From the NCBI GenBank assembly GCA_005884605.1, contig VBBE01000053.1, positions 1 through 5,150 on the forward strand: a stretch of DNA of 5,150 bases. Direction: 5' to 3'. Below, piece after piece: positions 770 to 5,150 of the stretch. The notes beneath the pieces are model-generated. The model saw only the letters and a program-made list of their open reading frames with translations. It was not told the origin of the DNA and ran no database searches. The stretch comes from Candidatus Bathyarchaeota archaeon. GTDB lineage: Archaea; Thermoproteota; Bathyarchaeia; 40CM-2-53-6. Numbering within the stretch: position 1 is the first letter of the stretch; every line of letters begins with the position of its first letter. The translations under genes and the position numbers were made by a program.

Positions 770-1684
770 ATGTCCGGGTCCTCATCCGGTTTTCCTATGA
801 AGGTAATACTAGAGGAGGCCGTCCGTGAAGGGGCGATAAGAGTAGACCTGGCCTGGGACCTATTCTTTGAAAAGCCAACAATCCCCGAAGGACATGGCGG
901 AAGACTAATACCGTTTACCAATTGGCTCTGGGACGAGCTGGGCAAGAAAGCAGGAAACCTGAACCGGAACTCCAGCAGCGAGCTCACTCTGACGATACCC
1001 TCTCTAAGCGAACAGGGAATGGATTTCTTGCTACGTCTGACATCTTTCTGGTCAAACGACGTTTACCTGAAGAAGGACGGGGTGCTTTCAGAGAACCTCT
1101 GGAGGAAGCCGGTCATCAACGTCTTTGATGATACTAGGCTGGACGGATCTGAGCGTTCGCTGACAAGGAAACGGGAAGGATACTATACGCGATTCCTCAT
1201 GCCGCTGCTCGGGCCCGGCCGGACTGCCTTCAGGGTCGAAGTGATCGAGAACGGTGAATCGTCCGCTCGATTACACAGCCACAGCGAAGTCGACGAATAC
1301 TATCTGATTCTCGAAGGGTCCGGGACCCTTAGATTCAACTACAAAGAAATCGCCGTCCATCGGGGGGACCTGATCGGAAAGCCAACGGGACCGGATGATG
1401 CTTCCCAACTTATCGCGGATCAAGGAGAAACACTGCGTATACTCGATATGGAGGTGTGGCACGACCGTCCCGACAACTCCAAGGATCTAATCCACAATCC
1501 GGATTTCAATGAGATCTTCATGAGAGGACGGGGTTGGGGCGCTCTCGTCCCAGCAGACGCCCTCCTCAACCCCAGCGACTTTGGACAATACTACAATGAA
1601 AGCTACAAGCGAACCAAGGATGGCGGGTGGGTTCCCTCAAAGGCACGCGGCCACAAGAAGATCAGGGCAAAGTCATCACAATAG
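770..1684 (+). CDS. Cupin-fold protein with long N-terminal region (COG3837-like cupin)
   Basis: The 304-residue protein carries a single cupin beta-barrel at about 140-235. Cupin motif 1 is visible as G162...H169-S-H171...E176...G183, giving the usual His, His and Glu metal ligands. Motif 2 is G199...P205-T-G207, but the position that normally supplies the fourth ligand, a histidine, is Asp210. The tail (WHDRPD, then PDF) resembles uncharacterised COG3837 cupins, where a similar D..xPD segment follows the barrel. Residues 1-140 are not recognised and resemble no domain I can name; there is no signal peptide or membrane helix, so it is cytoplasmic. The C-terminus is Lys/Arg-rich. A stop at 761-763 means ATG 770 is the first usable start; ATG 797 (MKVILEEAV) is an equally credible alternative, and neither has a clear Shine-Dalgarno. 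The metal and substrate are unknown; isomerase, dioxygenase or ligand-sensing roles are all possible for cupins. Confidence 0.85.
   Translation: MSGSSSGFPMKVILEEAVREGAIRVDLAWDLFFEKPTIPEGHGGRLIPFTNWLWDELGKKAGNLNRNSSSELTLTIPSLSEQGMDFLLRLTSFWSNDVYLKKDGVLSENLWRKPVINVFDDTRLDGSERSLTRKREGYYTRFLMPLLGPGRTAFRVEVIENGESSARLHSHSEVDEYYLILEGSGTLRFNYKEIAVHRGDLIGKPTGPDDASQLIADQGETLRILDMEVWHDRPDNSKDLIHNPDFNEIFMRGRGWGALVPADALLNPSDFGQYYNESYKRTKDGGWVPSKARGHKKIRAKSSQ
1314..1330. repeat. Perfect 17-base palindrome inside the cupin gene
   Basis: AAGGGTCC and GGACCCTT flank a single central G, giving an 8-bp perfect inverted repeat with a 1-base centre. It falls in codons for the turn after cupin motif 1 (LEGSGTL), so coding constraint on Gly/Ser/Thr codons may explain it. 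It has the same 'long arms, one-base centre' form as the intergenic palindrome at 2745-2763, though with a different sequence. Confidence 0.3.
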
Positions 1685-1869
1685 ACCCGATGAGTGACCC
1701 CTCCCCACCTGACTCATGGGCAGTTTCAATCGTCCAAAATATTACCAGTTATCCGACACTACACTGACGATGAGCCTGCCTAAGAGTAATGAGTAGTCGG
1801 AGCCTCGTTCGCCTGGACCTCGCCTAGAATATCGGAATTATGTTTTCATCGTTCTATTCGCAGCTATTC
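1685..1869. other. Intergenic stretch with no supported gene
   Basis: About 185 bases follow the cupin stop at moderate G+C (roughly 45% by hand count over 1721-1860). Both strands break into short frames without recognisable protein character. The only structure seen is a weak 6-bp pair, ATGAGT (1690-1695) with ACTCAT (1712-1717), just after the cupin stop. No tRNA, rRNA, SRP or RNase P motif was recognised. Confidence 0.5.
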
Positions 1870-1879
1870 TCGCTATCGC

Positions 1880-2027
1880 CTCGGTGGCGACCCGTGCCCG
1901 CTCGGCCGCGACCTTATCCGCGGGCGCACCGGTCAGGTCCCCGCATCACCTGCCAGCGGATCGACGGGTCCGAGTGGAGCAGCCAGTCGACGACGGTCAG
2001 AGATATCTCTCCCGCAGTGGGATGCAT
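1880..2027 (-). pseudogene. Frameshifted, truncated N-terminus of squalene-cyclase/prenyltransferase-like family protein
   Basis: On the minus strand an ATG at 2027-2025 opens MHPTAGEISLTVV followed by DWLLHSDPSIRWQVMR, which I recognise as the N-terminal signature of a hypothetical family common in actinobacteria. That family is annotated as squalene-cyclase or prenyltransferase-repeat-like, with an alpha/alpha-toroid fold and usually around 300 residues (from memory). After Arg29 the frame goes off and stops at 1916-1914. Skipping one base in the C4 run at 1939-1942 restores DLTGAPADKVAAERARVATE, which continues the family consensus. At 1880 the match ends where GWGARLL would be expected; the frame then reads unrelated AIARIAANRT and stops at 1840-1838. 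So about 49 codons survive, with one +1 frameshift and loss of the rest. G+C over 1871-2040 is about 69% (118 of 170 by hand) against 40-45% in the flanks, suggesting transfer from a high-G+C source. It is probably non-functional. Confidence 0.75.
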
Positions 2028-2055
2028 CGGCCTGTCGGCACTATGCTCCCGCCGC

Positions 2056-2068
2056 GTGCTTTTAGCAC
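2056..2068. repeat. Small hairpin at the right edge of the G+C-rich island
   Basis: GTGCT (2056-2060) and AGCAC (2064-2068) form a perfect 5-bp stem around TTT. It lies exactly where composition falls from G+C-rich to A+T-rich, upstream of the remnant's start codon. It may be part of the incoming DNA's end or chance. Confidence 0.3.
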
Positions 2069-2098
2069 AACCATATAGTCAAGATTATCGGGCTCGGG

Positions 2099-2105
2099 AA
2101 AAAAA
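2099..2105 (-). terminator. T-tract terminator for the secreted-protein gene
   Basis: Seven consecutive A bases on the plus strand read as T7 on the minus strand, flanked by C runs, 46 bases downstream of the stop at 2151-2153. Archaeal RNA polymerase terminates at such U-tracts without needing a stable hairpin. The position is appropriate for ending the 2675-2151 transcript. Confidence 0.5.
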
Positions 2106-2150
2106 GGGGATTTGACAGTTTTTCAGGACAACATCTAGCACCATCAGGAA

Positions 2151-2675
2151 TTATCCAGTGTTCACCAGATATCCGTATAACATGGCAAGCGAGTCCGATG
2201 GTGCCATGATGGTAACTCCGGGCGAAACGACAAAACCTGTTGTCAGATGCTCGTCCTTGAACGCGACGCCATCCACGTCGGCTACTTGGTAAGAGATGAA
2301 AACCAAGCTTCGATGGTTGCTCAATTGTTCTCTGAGTTCGATGGTGAAAATCGTCGAGTTTCCCGCATACACCCTGCCCCTATCTATTCTCCAAGAGACA
2401 TCGGTGACGACCAAGACCGAACCCACTGGAACCGTGAAATTCTCTGGTGTCGTTCCATCAGAATGCGATCTAGTACAGAACAGTTCGCGAGCTATCACGG
2501 GAGAGCCTTGACAGCGAAGCGTGACAAGTGACCCAGGTTCTTGTCCAAGGTGAGTCTTTGGAAAGTTTGTGACGAACACGTTGAGCACCTGAGATGCAGA
2601 TGCGGATGCGAACATCCCGGTGATGAAAGTGGCGAGTACTACAATGGTCACAATGATTCCTTCTTTTCTATTCAA
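2151..2675 (-). CDS. Secreted beta-rich protein of unknown function
   Basis: The 174-residue product begins with a short basic stretch (MNRKEG) and a hydrophobic core (7-22) followed by ASASASQ, a typical signal peptide likely cleaved near residues 25-28. The mature part is rich in Val, Thr and Ser alternation typical of a beta-sandwich. It shows VLNVFVTNFP (30-39) and FTVPVGSVLVVTDVSW (80-95), patterns I associate with small secreted bacterial proteins of the 'NFPxxQxVxG' and 'VPxGxxLVVTDV' kind. Cys55 and Cys67 could form a disulfide. The start is TTG: the upstream in-frame codons are TTT then TGA, and a strong AAGGAGG lies 11 bases before it. It has its own promoter-like elements and diverges from the CxxC gene at about 2928. 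No catalytic residues are recognisable; surface binding or adhesion is possible but not shown. Confidence 0.8.
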   Translation of the reverse strand: MNRKEGIIVTIVVLATFITGMFASASASQVLNVFVTNFPKTHLGQEPGSLVTLRCQGSPVIARELFCTRSHSDGTTPENFTVPVGSVLVVTDVSWRIDRGRVYAGNSTIFTIELREQLSNHRSLVFISYQVADVDGVAFKDEHLTTGFVVSPGVTIMAPSDSLAMLYGYLVNTG

Positions 2676-2686
2676 AAATCAACACA

Positions 2687-2693
2687 CCTCCTT
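2687..2693 (-). promoter_or_regulatory. Strong Shine-Dalgarno AAGGAGG deciding a TTG start
   Basis: AAGGAGG on the minus strand ends 11 bases before the TTG at 2675. It is the strongest ribosome-binding site in the window. No in-frame ATG or GTG lies between it and the TTG. Confidence 0.7.
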
Positions 2694-2730
2694 CCCATCC
2701 CATGGCCCGCGTTTCGTATGGCGATGACCA

Positions 2731-2736
2731 TTTAAG
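2731..2736 (-). promoter_or_regulatory. TATA-like box for the secreted-protein gene
   Basis: CTCTTAAATGG on the minus strand contains CTTAAA at 2736-2731. An archaeal start site about 25 bases on would be near 2707, leaving a leader of about 32 bases that includes the AAGGAGG. The core reads TTTAAG on the plus strand, so it could also drive rightward transcription beginning near 2758. Confidence 0.5.
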
Positions 2737-2744
2737 AGAATCAG

Positions 2745-2763
2745 GGACTCTCACTGAGAGTCC
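2745..2763. promoter_or_regulatory. Perfect 9+1+9 palindrome, probable operator
   Basis: GGACTCTCA and TGAGAGTCC flank a central C, a perfect 19-base palindrome. It lies in the divergent region, about 9 bases from the TATA-like box at 2731-2736 on the side upstream for leftward transcription, and over the predicted start of any rightward transcript. Symmetry and position suit a dimeric regulator such as a winged-helix protein, activating leftward or repressing rightward transcription. A one-base loop is poor for an RNA hairpin, favouring a DNA site. Confidence 0.55.
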
Positions 2764-2897
2764 TATTCCTCAAGTATGATCGAAAGTGGCTACGGTAGCC
2801 TCGGAGAGACTCGAATATGATGGAAAGAGAGGGGACGCTACGAGAGATCGGGCAGCGGGTCAGATCCTTATCCCCACCCTTGAGAGGAGAAAGTTCG

Positions 2898-2905
2898 CTT
2901 ATATG
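2898..2905 (+). promoter_or_regulatory. TATA-like box for the CxxC protein gene
   Basis: CTTATATG, preceded by the purine-rich GAGAAAG, has its centre near 2902. The GTG at 2928 lies 26 bases downstream, the usual archaeal TATA-to-start spacing, which fits a leaderless mRNA. It falls inside the longer open frame beginning at 2817, so it argues for a later start. Confidence 0.4.
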
Positions 2906-2927
2906 TCAGAACGAGGAATCGAATAGT

Positions 2928-3353
2928 GTGAGACCGGGTCACTCTTCTTCGCCTAGTTTTCCCTTGAAGGTTACTTTTGTCGGCATCATGCCCACTCTGT
3001 TCGCTCACTGCCAGCACTGTATGGAAGTCATGCACGCGACCGGCATGGCTCCTTATTCGGAACAGCTGGAAGACTACCCGGAGGATGTCAAGAAACAATA
3101 TTTCCAGCTCTCTGAGATAGCACAGAAGCTCAAGACTGAGTTCGGCGGGTCAGTAGTACTCGATCCAGTGGACTCGGCGTCCCCGCAAGGAGTCTGGTTA
3201 TCGATCAGGCACCGAATCCTAAGGACTCCATGCATCTTGATTCGAGGGAACAAAGTCTTCAACAAATTTCCGGACTACGAAGAGCTAAGAACAACGATAC
3301 TCGACGCGTTAGAGCGCTCCGGCCGAATAGCCTCGACCCGTGTTTCTCACTAG
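2928..3353 (+). CDS. Thioredoxin-fold CxxC protein, likely thiol-disulfide oxidoreductase
   Basis: From GTG 2928 the product is 141 residues with a thioredoxin-like plan. A beta strand (KVTFVGIM) leads to a C28-Q-H-C31 redox pair at the start of a helix, followed by an acidic helical insert (YSEQLEDYPEDVKKQY), a second strand (SVVLDPVDS), then TPC at 100-102 where thioredoxins have the cis-proline, ILIRGNKVF strands and a final helix (DYEELRTTILDAL). A third cysteine directly after the cis-proline is unusual. There is no signal peptide, so it should be cytoplasmic. The start is uncertain: ATG 2817 has GGAG 9-10 bases upstream but adds 37 residues of low-complexity, non-protein-like sequence; TTG 2964 begins exactly at the fold; GTG 2928 fits the TATA-like box. 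The stop overlaps the convergent gene's stop by four bases. The substrate (disulfides, a metal or arsenate) is unknown. Confidence 0.75.
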   Translation: MRPGHSSSPSFPLKVTFVGIMPTLFAHCQHCMEVMHATGMAPYSEQLEDYPEDVKKQYFQLSEIAQKLKTEFGGSVVLDPVDSASPQGVWLSIRHRILRTPCILIRGNKVFNKFPDYEELRTTILDALERSGRIASTRVSH

Positions 3354-3994
3354 ATCGAACGTCCAACCAGAGAGATAAGATCAATCGTCTTAGCCAGTTC
3401 GTCCATGCGCAGCCTCGCCACGAGGTGGAGCCTCGACGGTTCTTCCTCAAGCATCAGAGAATCAACAGCGTTCAGATCTTTCAATCTCGCAACCAAACCA
3501 CTCCGGTCGACCAGTTGGTTCGCGAACTCGACGCCCTTCGAATAGACACTGTACCCCAGCTCACTGAGTTGAGGGATCTTGACTTCTTCAATGCCAGCTG
3601 TTTCCCAGGTGAGCTTCATGTTCTTCCTCAGCCTCGTAATCTCAACCTGGAACTTTACTGGGTCGGTCAGGGTAGCCCAGCAGTTCAGCCTGTCAGAATC
3701 CCTCGTGATCAACGAGTAGGGGTAGTAGATCAGATTCTCTCTAGCGCCTAACGTTAACGCAAACTCTAGCTCCTTGAACCCGTCAGATGAGCTGTTCATC
3801 TCGCACTTTATTCTGAGACCAGCATGCCCGAACGATGCAAACTTCACCCTGGCCTTCCGGGAGAATCTCTCCTCGAACCAGTGAGCGTATCGCTTGAGAA
3901 TCCTGTGCTTGTAGTAGGTCCCGAGAAAATAGACGACGACGAGGATAGTGGCTAGAGCCGCGACAACTTCGATATCTGAGAAGACGAAGGCCAA
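3350..3994 (-). CDS. Single-pass membrane protein of unknown function, downstream of CstA
   Basis: The 214-residue product has one hydrophobic helix near the N-terminus (about 8-27, VVAALATILVVVYFL) followed by a basic segment (KHRILKRYAHW, RFSRKARVK), predicting a short outside tail and a soluble cytoplasmic domain of about 185 residues. That domain is mixed alpha/beta with a charged helical C-terminus (LEEEPSRLHLVARLRMDELAKT). I do not recognise the family and see no catalytic motif. The start is TTG at 3994: an in-frame TAG lies four codons upstream and no ATG or GTG follows before the membrane helix ends. There is no clear Shine-Dalgarno. It begins 39 bases after the CstA stop on the same strand, so co-transcription and an accessory role for the transporter are plausible but unproven. 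Confidence 0.75.
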   Translation of the reverse strand: MAFVFSDIEVVAALATILVVVYFLGTYYKHRILKRYAHWFEERFSRKARVKFASFGHAGLRIKCEMNSSSDGFKELEFALTLGARENLIYYPYSLITRDSDRLNCWATLTDPVKFQVEITRLRKNMKLTWETAGIEEVKIPQLSELGYSVYSKGVEFANQLVDRSGLVARLKDLNAVDSLMLEEEPSRLHLVARLRMDELAKTIDLISLVGRSI

Positions 3995-4033
3995 GACCAG
4001 TGACTAGGAGGCCGGCACCCTACATGATGCTAT

Positions 4034-5149
4034 CTACTTTTCAGCGAACTCGTTAGCGAGGCTTGGTTGCGGCGTCTCCGCTTCGACCGCCTTGGCGAGC
4101 ATCGGCCCCAGAGTCATTGACGGCGCGCTGACTGCCCCGACTCTAATCCGCCGATAGGCGCGGAATCCATCGTATGACAATACAATGCCTAGAATTGCCA
4201 GTATGACAGCGATTCCCCCCGCAACCGCGTTTCCGTAAATCTTCAATGGTGTGCTCGTCGTCATAGCAATGTCTAGCGTGGCATAGGCAGTATAGCCTAG
4301 CGCAACGATGGTTGTGCCTAGCATGAATACTGCCGGTATGCCTGTCAACAATGTTGTCCTTCGAATCTTTGCGAGCCATAGTGTCGTGACGAGGAGTGTT
4401 ACACCGGCAAGGAGTTGGTTGGAACCACCAAACAGGGTCCAGATGAAACCCCAAGGAGCGCTGAACCTCGTGCTCGTAAGCAAGAATGTGATTATAGACA
4501 CGATAATCGAAGTGACGTAGATATTCTTGAGAAAACGCCGTCCAACCATCTCTGAGATAGCTAGCCGCGCAAACCGGAGGGCCAGCTGGGTCAGCGTGAG
4601 CCCTAGTATCAGAACCATAAGAGCCATGATCGCGATCGATGCGGCTGATGGGATTAGCAGGTTGCTAAGATACTTGGCTCCACCAATCACATAGAGCGAT
4701 AGAGCACCACCTTTAGTTGACGTAAGGGCCCCAACCGCCACCACTGATGTCAGCCCCAGAATCCCCTCAAGCAGCATCCCACCCCCACCAACGAAGTGAG
4801 CGTCCGCCTCATTGTCCAACTGCTTGGATGAAAGAGACGAACCAATCAAGCCATGCCAACCCGAGCACGCACCGCAGGCTATGGTGACAAAGAGAAGAGG
4901 CCATAGAGGAAAAGATATCGTACTGATCAGCCCGGACCCGGCGCCTATCGAGACGGGCGCGAACCAGTTGGTGAAGAGAGGCTGAGCAAAAGTCTGAGGC
5001 GCAACGAACGAGCTTCCTATGATTGCCGCGATAACGAAGTAGGCCACGTAGAATCCCAGATAGTTTATCGGCATGGCAAAACTCCAGAGCGGCAAGACCG
5101 CTCCGAGAAAACTGAATCCTAGCATGGAGATCAAGAGGATATCTTCCTG
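4034..5149 (-). CDS. cstA: CstA-family transporter, C-terminal part (5' end outside window)
   Basis: The frame is open to the right edge, giving the last 371 residues; the TTG at 5134 is an internal Leu codon, not the start. Family hallmarks are CGACSGWHGLIGSSLSSKQL followed by DNEADAHFVGGGGMLLEG (E. coli CstA has the similar CGAxSGFHALI...), and LFGGSNQLLAGVTLL, matching the WxLFGxxNQLLA segment of the C-terminal CstA domain. About nine hydrophobic segments are visible, ending in a 40-residue cytoplasmic tail (AYRRIRVG...EFAEK). Complete relatives are roughly 550-700 residues, so about a third or more is missing. Bacterial CstA and BtsT take up pyruvate and have been linked to peptide use under carbon starvation; the archaeal substrate is not known and pyruvate is an inference. 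A small membrane-protein gene follows 39 bases downstream. Confidence 0.93.
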   Translation of the reverse strand, partial: QEDILLISMLGFSFLGAVLPLWSFAMPINYLGFYVAYFVIAAIIGSSFVAPQTFAQPLFTNWFAPVSIGAGSGLISTISFPLWPLLFVTIACGACSGWHGLIGSSLSSKQLDNEADAHFVGGGGMLLEGILGLTSVVAVGALTSTKGGALSLYVIGGAKYLSNLLIPSAASIAIMALMVLILGLTLTQLALRFARLAISEMVGRRFLKNIYVTSIIVSIITFLLTSTRFSAPWGFIWTLFGGSNQLLAGVTLLVTTLWLAKIRRTTLLTGIPAVFMLGTTIVALGYTAYATLDIAMTTSTPLKIYGNAVAGGIAVILAILGIVLSYDGFRAYRRIRVGAVSAPSMTLGPMLAKAVEAETPQPSLANEFAEK

Positions 5150-5150
5150 C

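Follow-up and report, generated by a model that had tools for sequence, protein, structure and literature searches.

What is a short, G+C-rich island doing where two convergent genes of a soil archaeon meet, and where did it come from? The window, i.e., the whole stretch of 5,150 nucleotides analysed here, contains genes for a copper-binding protein, a cupin, an uncharacterised protein, a weakly thioredoxin-like protein and a second uncharacterised protein, plus part of a CstA transporter gene. The island lies between the cupin-domain gene (770..1684, plus strand; Pfam PF07883, E 1.2e-6) and an uncharacterised gene (2151..2675, minus strand) without any Pfam match at E 0.001, and the 3' ends of both genes face it.

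The cupin protein has 267 relatives, and the organism names among the 120 matches listed are Thaumarchaeota, Nitrososphaerota and Bathyarchaeota. In the genome collection it matches 12 loci. Protein identity reaches 94-96% at four, which belong to BA_22, BA_21 and BA_24 (each named Candidatus Bathyarchaeota archaeon) and to Crenarchaeota archaeon 13_1_40CM_3_52_17. The copper-binding gene on its left (1-797) finds no match next to the cupin gene at the loci of the sisters and has weak matches (71-82% identity) in three of the 12 genomes. Further to the right, an uncharacterised gene (2817-3353) encodes a CQHC motif and gives a weak thioredoxin-like match to NF047660 (16.7 bits, with a cut-off of 105).

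The G+C content of the island is 0.692 (1880-2061). None of the 461 segments taken elsewhere in the window reaches this value (maximum 0.615), nor does any of 2,482 overlapping 182-bp segments from the sister stretches L063-L065 (mean 0.523, maximum 0.626); the composition of the island is foreign to the host. The earlier note had given 69% G+C against 40-45% on both sides; this applies to the immediate flanks, which are at about 42% (0.417 for 1820-1879 and 0.414 for 2062-2160), but not to the wider surroundings, at about 52%.

A tblastn search located two minus-strand peptides of one family in adjacent frames, at 2027-1941 and 1939-1880. The first open piece, MHPTAGEISLTVVDWLLHSDPSIRWQVMR (1941..2027), is separated from the second, DLTGAPADKVAAERARVATE (1880..1939), by a one-base shift of the minus-strand frame at a run of four C (1939..1942), and the family similarity ends with the second piece. 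The two pieces, the single-base frameshift and the abrupt end of coding similarity near 1880 had all been read from the letters beforehand, and the protein-level match to a single family bears them out. The minus-strand frame, in turn, extends upstream beyond that reading, up to an ATG at 2027 (MHPTAGEISLTVV...).

As a whole, the island (1879..2063, minus strand) comprises a 5' leader of about 63 bp followed by the initial 40 codons of a gene publicly named "squalene cyclase". Its left end is at 1879 and its right end at 2062/2063, where the similarity to BA_24 starts. Past codon 40 the fragment departs from the family (GWGARLL comes next in the genome G008), and the remaining ~275 codons of the intact gene, which encodes about 315 residues, are wholly missing from it. 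The start codon, at 1998-2000, is CTG in the fragment vs. GTG in G008 and ATG in a second genome, G017. The island thus carries three disabling lesions: a frameshift, a truncation and a lost start codon. In addition, a short perfect inverted repeat, GTGCT-AAA-AGCAC, lies across the right junction on the minus strand (2056-2068) and may be due to chance.

The closest whole copies that we found belong to related archaea rather than to actinobacteria. They are stop-free open frames at G008:C65:5855-6796 (the genome titled archaeon 13_2_20CM_2_53_6) and G017:C102:479-1414, and their proteins are 91% identical. Positions 1879-2015 are 92.0% identical at the DNA level to the G008 contig (137 bp, E 4.0e-50); with the leader included, positions 1879-2063 are 89.7% identical to the G017 contig over 185 bp (L054 1300-1483), a match recovered in the class-wide search as 90% over 183 bp (E 8.0e-65). 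Judged from these alignments, the resemblance of the island to the family is far beyond chance. The fragment shares with the two intact genes the first 40 codons (90-92% DNA identity), a high G+C content and, in the case of G017, the leader; unlike the fragment, those genes are whole, open, about 315 codons long and located at other genomic sites. The suspicion that a gene remnant is hidden in this gap was therefore well founded, although the label "actinobacterial-type" attached to it was not: three records of a plasmid collection match the island, at 65% and 53% identity in the two from actinobacteria and at 58% in the one from an alphaproteobacterium, vs. 89% protein and 92% DNA identity for the archaeal whole copy. 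Within the scope of these plasmid records, an actinobacterial source was rejected, the two actinobacterial matches falling below the archaeal copies.

Over the few codons available, the fragment differs from G008 by three synonymous and three non-synonymous codons and from G017 by four and six, respectively, the start codon being counted among the non-synonymous ones in both comparisons. G008 and G017 differ from each other at the same codons by five synonymous and five non-synonymous changes, i.e., to a similar degree, and there is no clear surplus of protein-changing differences in the fragment in this small sample.

As far as the distribution of the gene is concerned, the joined 49-residue reading of the two pieces gave some match at E 1 in 10 of the 12 genomes of the cupin set, and strong matches in three of them (G008 89%, G010 77% and G012 74% identity). 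A relative of the intact gene was found at E 1e-30 or better in 11 of 256 genomes of the class, and two matches, G008 itself and G005 (36-37%), came from 398 genomes drawn evenly across the phylum. In the draft assemblies of G001-G004, the four genomes nearest to the host, no copy was found at E 1e-30; single absences carry little weight, because the genomes are drafts. Taken together, these counts make the intact gene a rarity within the phylum, with a patchy occurrence around the relatives of the host, whose own genome may hold a whole copy elsewhere.

The G008 and G017 genes are themselves G+C-rich (71%, with 0.88-0.89 at the third position, in contexts of 0.54 and 0.52), and the other six archaeal copies measured are at 0.59-0.62. 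We take both contigs as archaeal and not as contamination, because they have about 3.7 kb in common (six pieces, 91-96% identity) and because three other archaeal genomes contain DNA that is 73-77% identical to one gene of the G017 contig. Relative to a large, secreted-looking neighbour that both genomes share, the cyclase-named gene changes sides between G008 and G017; the pair occupies L053 2169-6814 and L054 430-4685, in switched order. Two other archaeal genomes also have distant relatives of the family named squalene cyclase (26-30% identity), positioned a few kb upstream of their cupin gene (L006 2149-3102 and L010 1839-2690).

We then compared the same site in the sister genomes. In BA_24, the two genes that flank the island adjoin in the same convergent order, 91.4% (797-1684) and 93.3% (2062-5150) identical to the window, without the island; the comparison of the locus in relatives proposed beforehand thus shows the island absent from a site whose two sides are 91-93% identical. 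The gap between the flanking genes is 168 bases long in BA_24 vs. 377 here, and the two gaps do not align. In BA_21 and BA_22 the flanking genes lie about 6 and 8 kb apart (L014 2532-8445 and L065 4637-12360, respectively), and a DNA search did not find the island in either genome. In the fourth close relative (L012, 13_1_40CM_3_52_17) the contig terminates within the cupin gene and so does not reach the site; about 2.5 kb upstream of its main cupin match, the same contig carries a partial second copy of the cupin 5' end (L012 3314-3462, 82.7% identical to 797-946), which is another front-end gene fragment in this group.

The left part of the intergenic stretch (1685..1878) gave matches of 16-28 bases only in the 12 related genomes (best E 0.09), and it cannot be aligned with the BA_24 gap. 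With the entire 377-base gap as query, seven of the 256 class genomes matched at E 0.001; in six the match fell on the cyclase-named gene, and in G226 it covered 27 bases. Since the BA_24 gap differs and BA_21 and BA_22 have about 6 and 8 kb between the flanking genes, this looks like a variable insertion site, where DNA is gained and lost.

A short, G+C-rich island that is missing at the corresponding site of BA_24 might also arise by an assembly or library chimera, i.e., by the misjoining of another organism's DNA into an archaeal contig. This was checked with a chance open frame of 91 codons on the plus strand (1840..2115), which runs across both junctions and the C4 run and is used here as a probe for independent copies, not as a claimed gene. 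Among 5.8 billion proteins it has one relative, P0243, which is known as a predicted protein only (98 residues, two member sequences); it is identical at 87 of 91 residues (96%), without gaps, and crosses the C4 run in the same plus-strand frame. Because P0243 spans the junctions at 96% and not 100%, there is a second, slightly different sequence with the same island, junctions and frame, and an assembly error is unlikely, as both junctions and the frameshift are covered. Furthermore, the flanking genes adjoin in BA_24 in the same order and orientation, and the nearest DNA copies found sit in archaeal contigs. A chimera, which we rejected as largely refuted by P0243, is accordingly very improbable.

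The recurrence of the island in at least one other sequence (P0243), its position between two gene 3' ends and the inverted repeat across its right junction would all be in keeping with an island retained for a job at the DNA or RNA level, for example as a 3' boundary or a small RNA between the convergent genes. This is very improbable, for the sister gap is a different 168 bp and a protein-coding ancestry accounts for the sequence. Moreover, no Rfam family was found at gathering thresholds, and no tRNA, so that an RNA gene was rejected.

On these grounds we regard the island, with high confidence, as the 5' part of a gene that moves horizontally, left stranded in a convergent intergenic gap of this archaeon and most likely dead there. 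How it arrived can be depicted in several steps. The gene would have entered this archaeal group from a G+C-rich bacterium and would then have passed among these archaea; a whole copy, or the front part alone, would have landed at the site by illegitimate recombination. The site would tolerate the fragment, which lies outside both neighbours, past their 3' ends: an insertion in a gap where both flanking genes end should do little harm, and it cuts no promoter or coding sequence. The fragment itself would yield no working protein and would most likely be neutral.

Within this explanation, the chances are somewhat below even that only the foreign piece of about 185 bp was inserted and the gene was never whole at this site. 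Both ends are sharp (the similarity to G017 covers 1879-2063 and that to the sister starts at 2062), none of the remaining ~275 codons is present, and GGTTGT stands beside the right breakpoint both here and in G017, which fits, weakly, a joining at short shared sequences. However, a frameshift and a lost start codon would also be expected in a copy that was whole but dead, and a larger insertion followed by a deletion is equally possible, because the whole gap (1685-2061) differs from that of the sister. The proposal of an inter-domain transfer followed by decay, or of a partial insertion, is thus upheld in its first part, an inter-domain transfer of the gene family being likely; decay and partial insertion are indistinguishable, and the piece at this site may have come from another archaeon.

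What the intact gene encodes is less clear than its public name implies. In a protein database its product scored at least 7,999 relatives, and the organism names among the 120 matches listed (84-92% identity) are two, Chloroflexi and Anaerolineales. The three plasmid members belong to the same family over their full length (44-51% identity to the G008 protein); those of Mycolicibacterium rufum (WP_043416248.1) and Pararhizobium qamdonense (WP_276121236.1) are annotated as squalene cyclases and that of Nonomuraea gerenzanensis is unannotated there. The actinobacterial and rhizobial plasmid members are much more distant than the archaeal copies and are not a likely source.

None of three family proteins had a Pfam match at E 0.1, and the G008 and M. 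rufum proteins had none in NCBIfam; the Pararhizobium relative scored 14.6 bits against NCBIfam TIGR01787, whose cut-off is 322.7. Class II terpene cyclases, including squalene-hopene cyclase, carry a catalytic D-x-D-D motif, and this motif is present in none of 122 proteins (the 120 matches listed plus those of G008 and G017). No solved relative of the family was found by sequence. With the type II terpene cyclases (MstE and squalene-hopene cyclase) as the comparison system for the intact gene, several barrel families score alike in the alpha-alpha toroid comparison; these fold matches are weak support, because the structure model is modest. What speaks for the description "squalene-cyclase/prenyltransferase-like" is, then, the name given in public records together with a weak similarity of fold.

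To place the archaeal copies, a midpoint-rooted tree of 56 sequences was built, including 45 of the 120 matches listed, eight archaeal copies and the three plasmid copies; the set did not include a partial copy from G018, two more distant archaeal copies and the other 75 listed matches. In this tree, G008 and G017 cluster with five database proteins (98/92); a separate group (100/96) unites five other archaeal copies, and G022 lies in between. With this rooting, the more divergent archaeal copies fall outside the large group that holds the Chloroflexi and Anaerolineales proteins. Taken alone, the tree would also be compatible with a large group that arose in archaea and was later transferred to bacteria. 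The G+C content of the G008/G017-type gene, together with the two named relatives, would point to an entry from a G+C-rich bacterium, and the donor was probably bacterial. A virus-borne gene was considered and rejected: 17 stretches in viral_contigs matched a pattern, and a search for close relatives found none that encodes a relative of the G008 protein.

The pseudogenes left by failed horizontal transfer in prokaryotes are a known kind, and the part of the survey by Liu et al. (2004, PMC522871) considered here describes them in 64 genomes, with a criterion based on composition. The island is a failed-transfer pseudogene of this kind, with family similarity in an intergenic region, lesions, a foreign composition and absence from the BA_24 site. 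As with the pseudogenes described in that part of the survey, it is a disabled piece of anomalous composition, intergenic and found by similarity with disablements; unlike there, both whole relatives in sister archaea and an empty site are available here.

The fragment itself is ordinary. It represents a fairly complete case of an archaeal failed-transfer relic, with the fragment, whole relatives, an island-free sister and a second copy across the junctions, and it shows that such relics are hidden in the gaps between called genes. What modest interest the case has comes chiefly from the large, poorly described family to which the island belongs; this family is not named in the titles and abstract openings that literature searching retrieved. 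It is conceivable, although we consider it unlikely, that a G+C-rich gene of about 315 residues, together with a short leader of its own, travels as a compact unit among archaea and bacteria of the soil, with no recognised mobile element, and has left intact copies at some sites and front-end pieces at others. If this were true, it would be a large, poorly described enzyme family that travels between domains, with thousands of members and no Pfam match.
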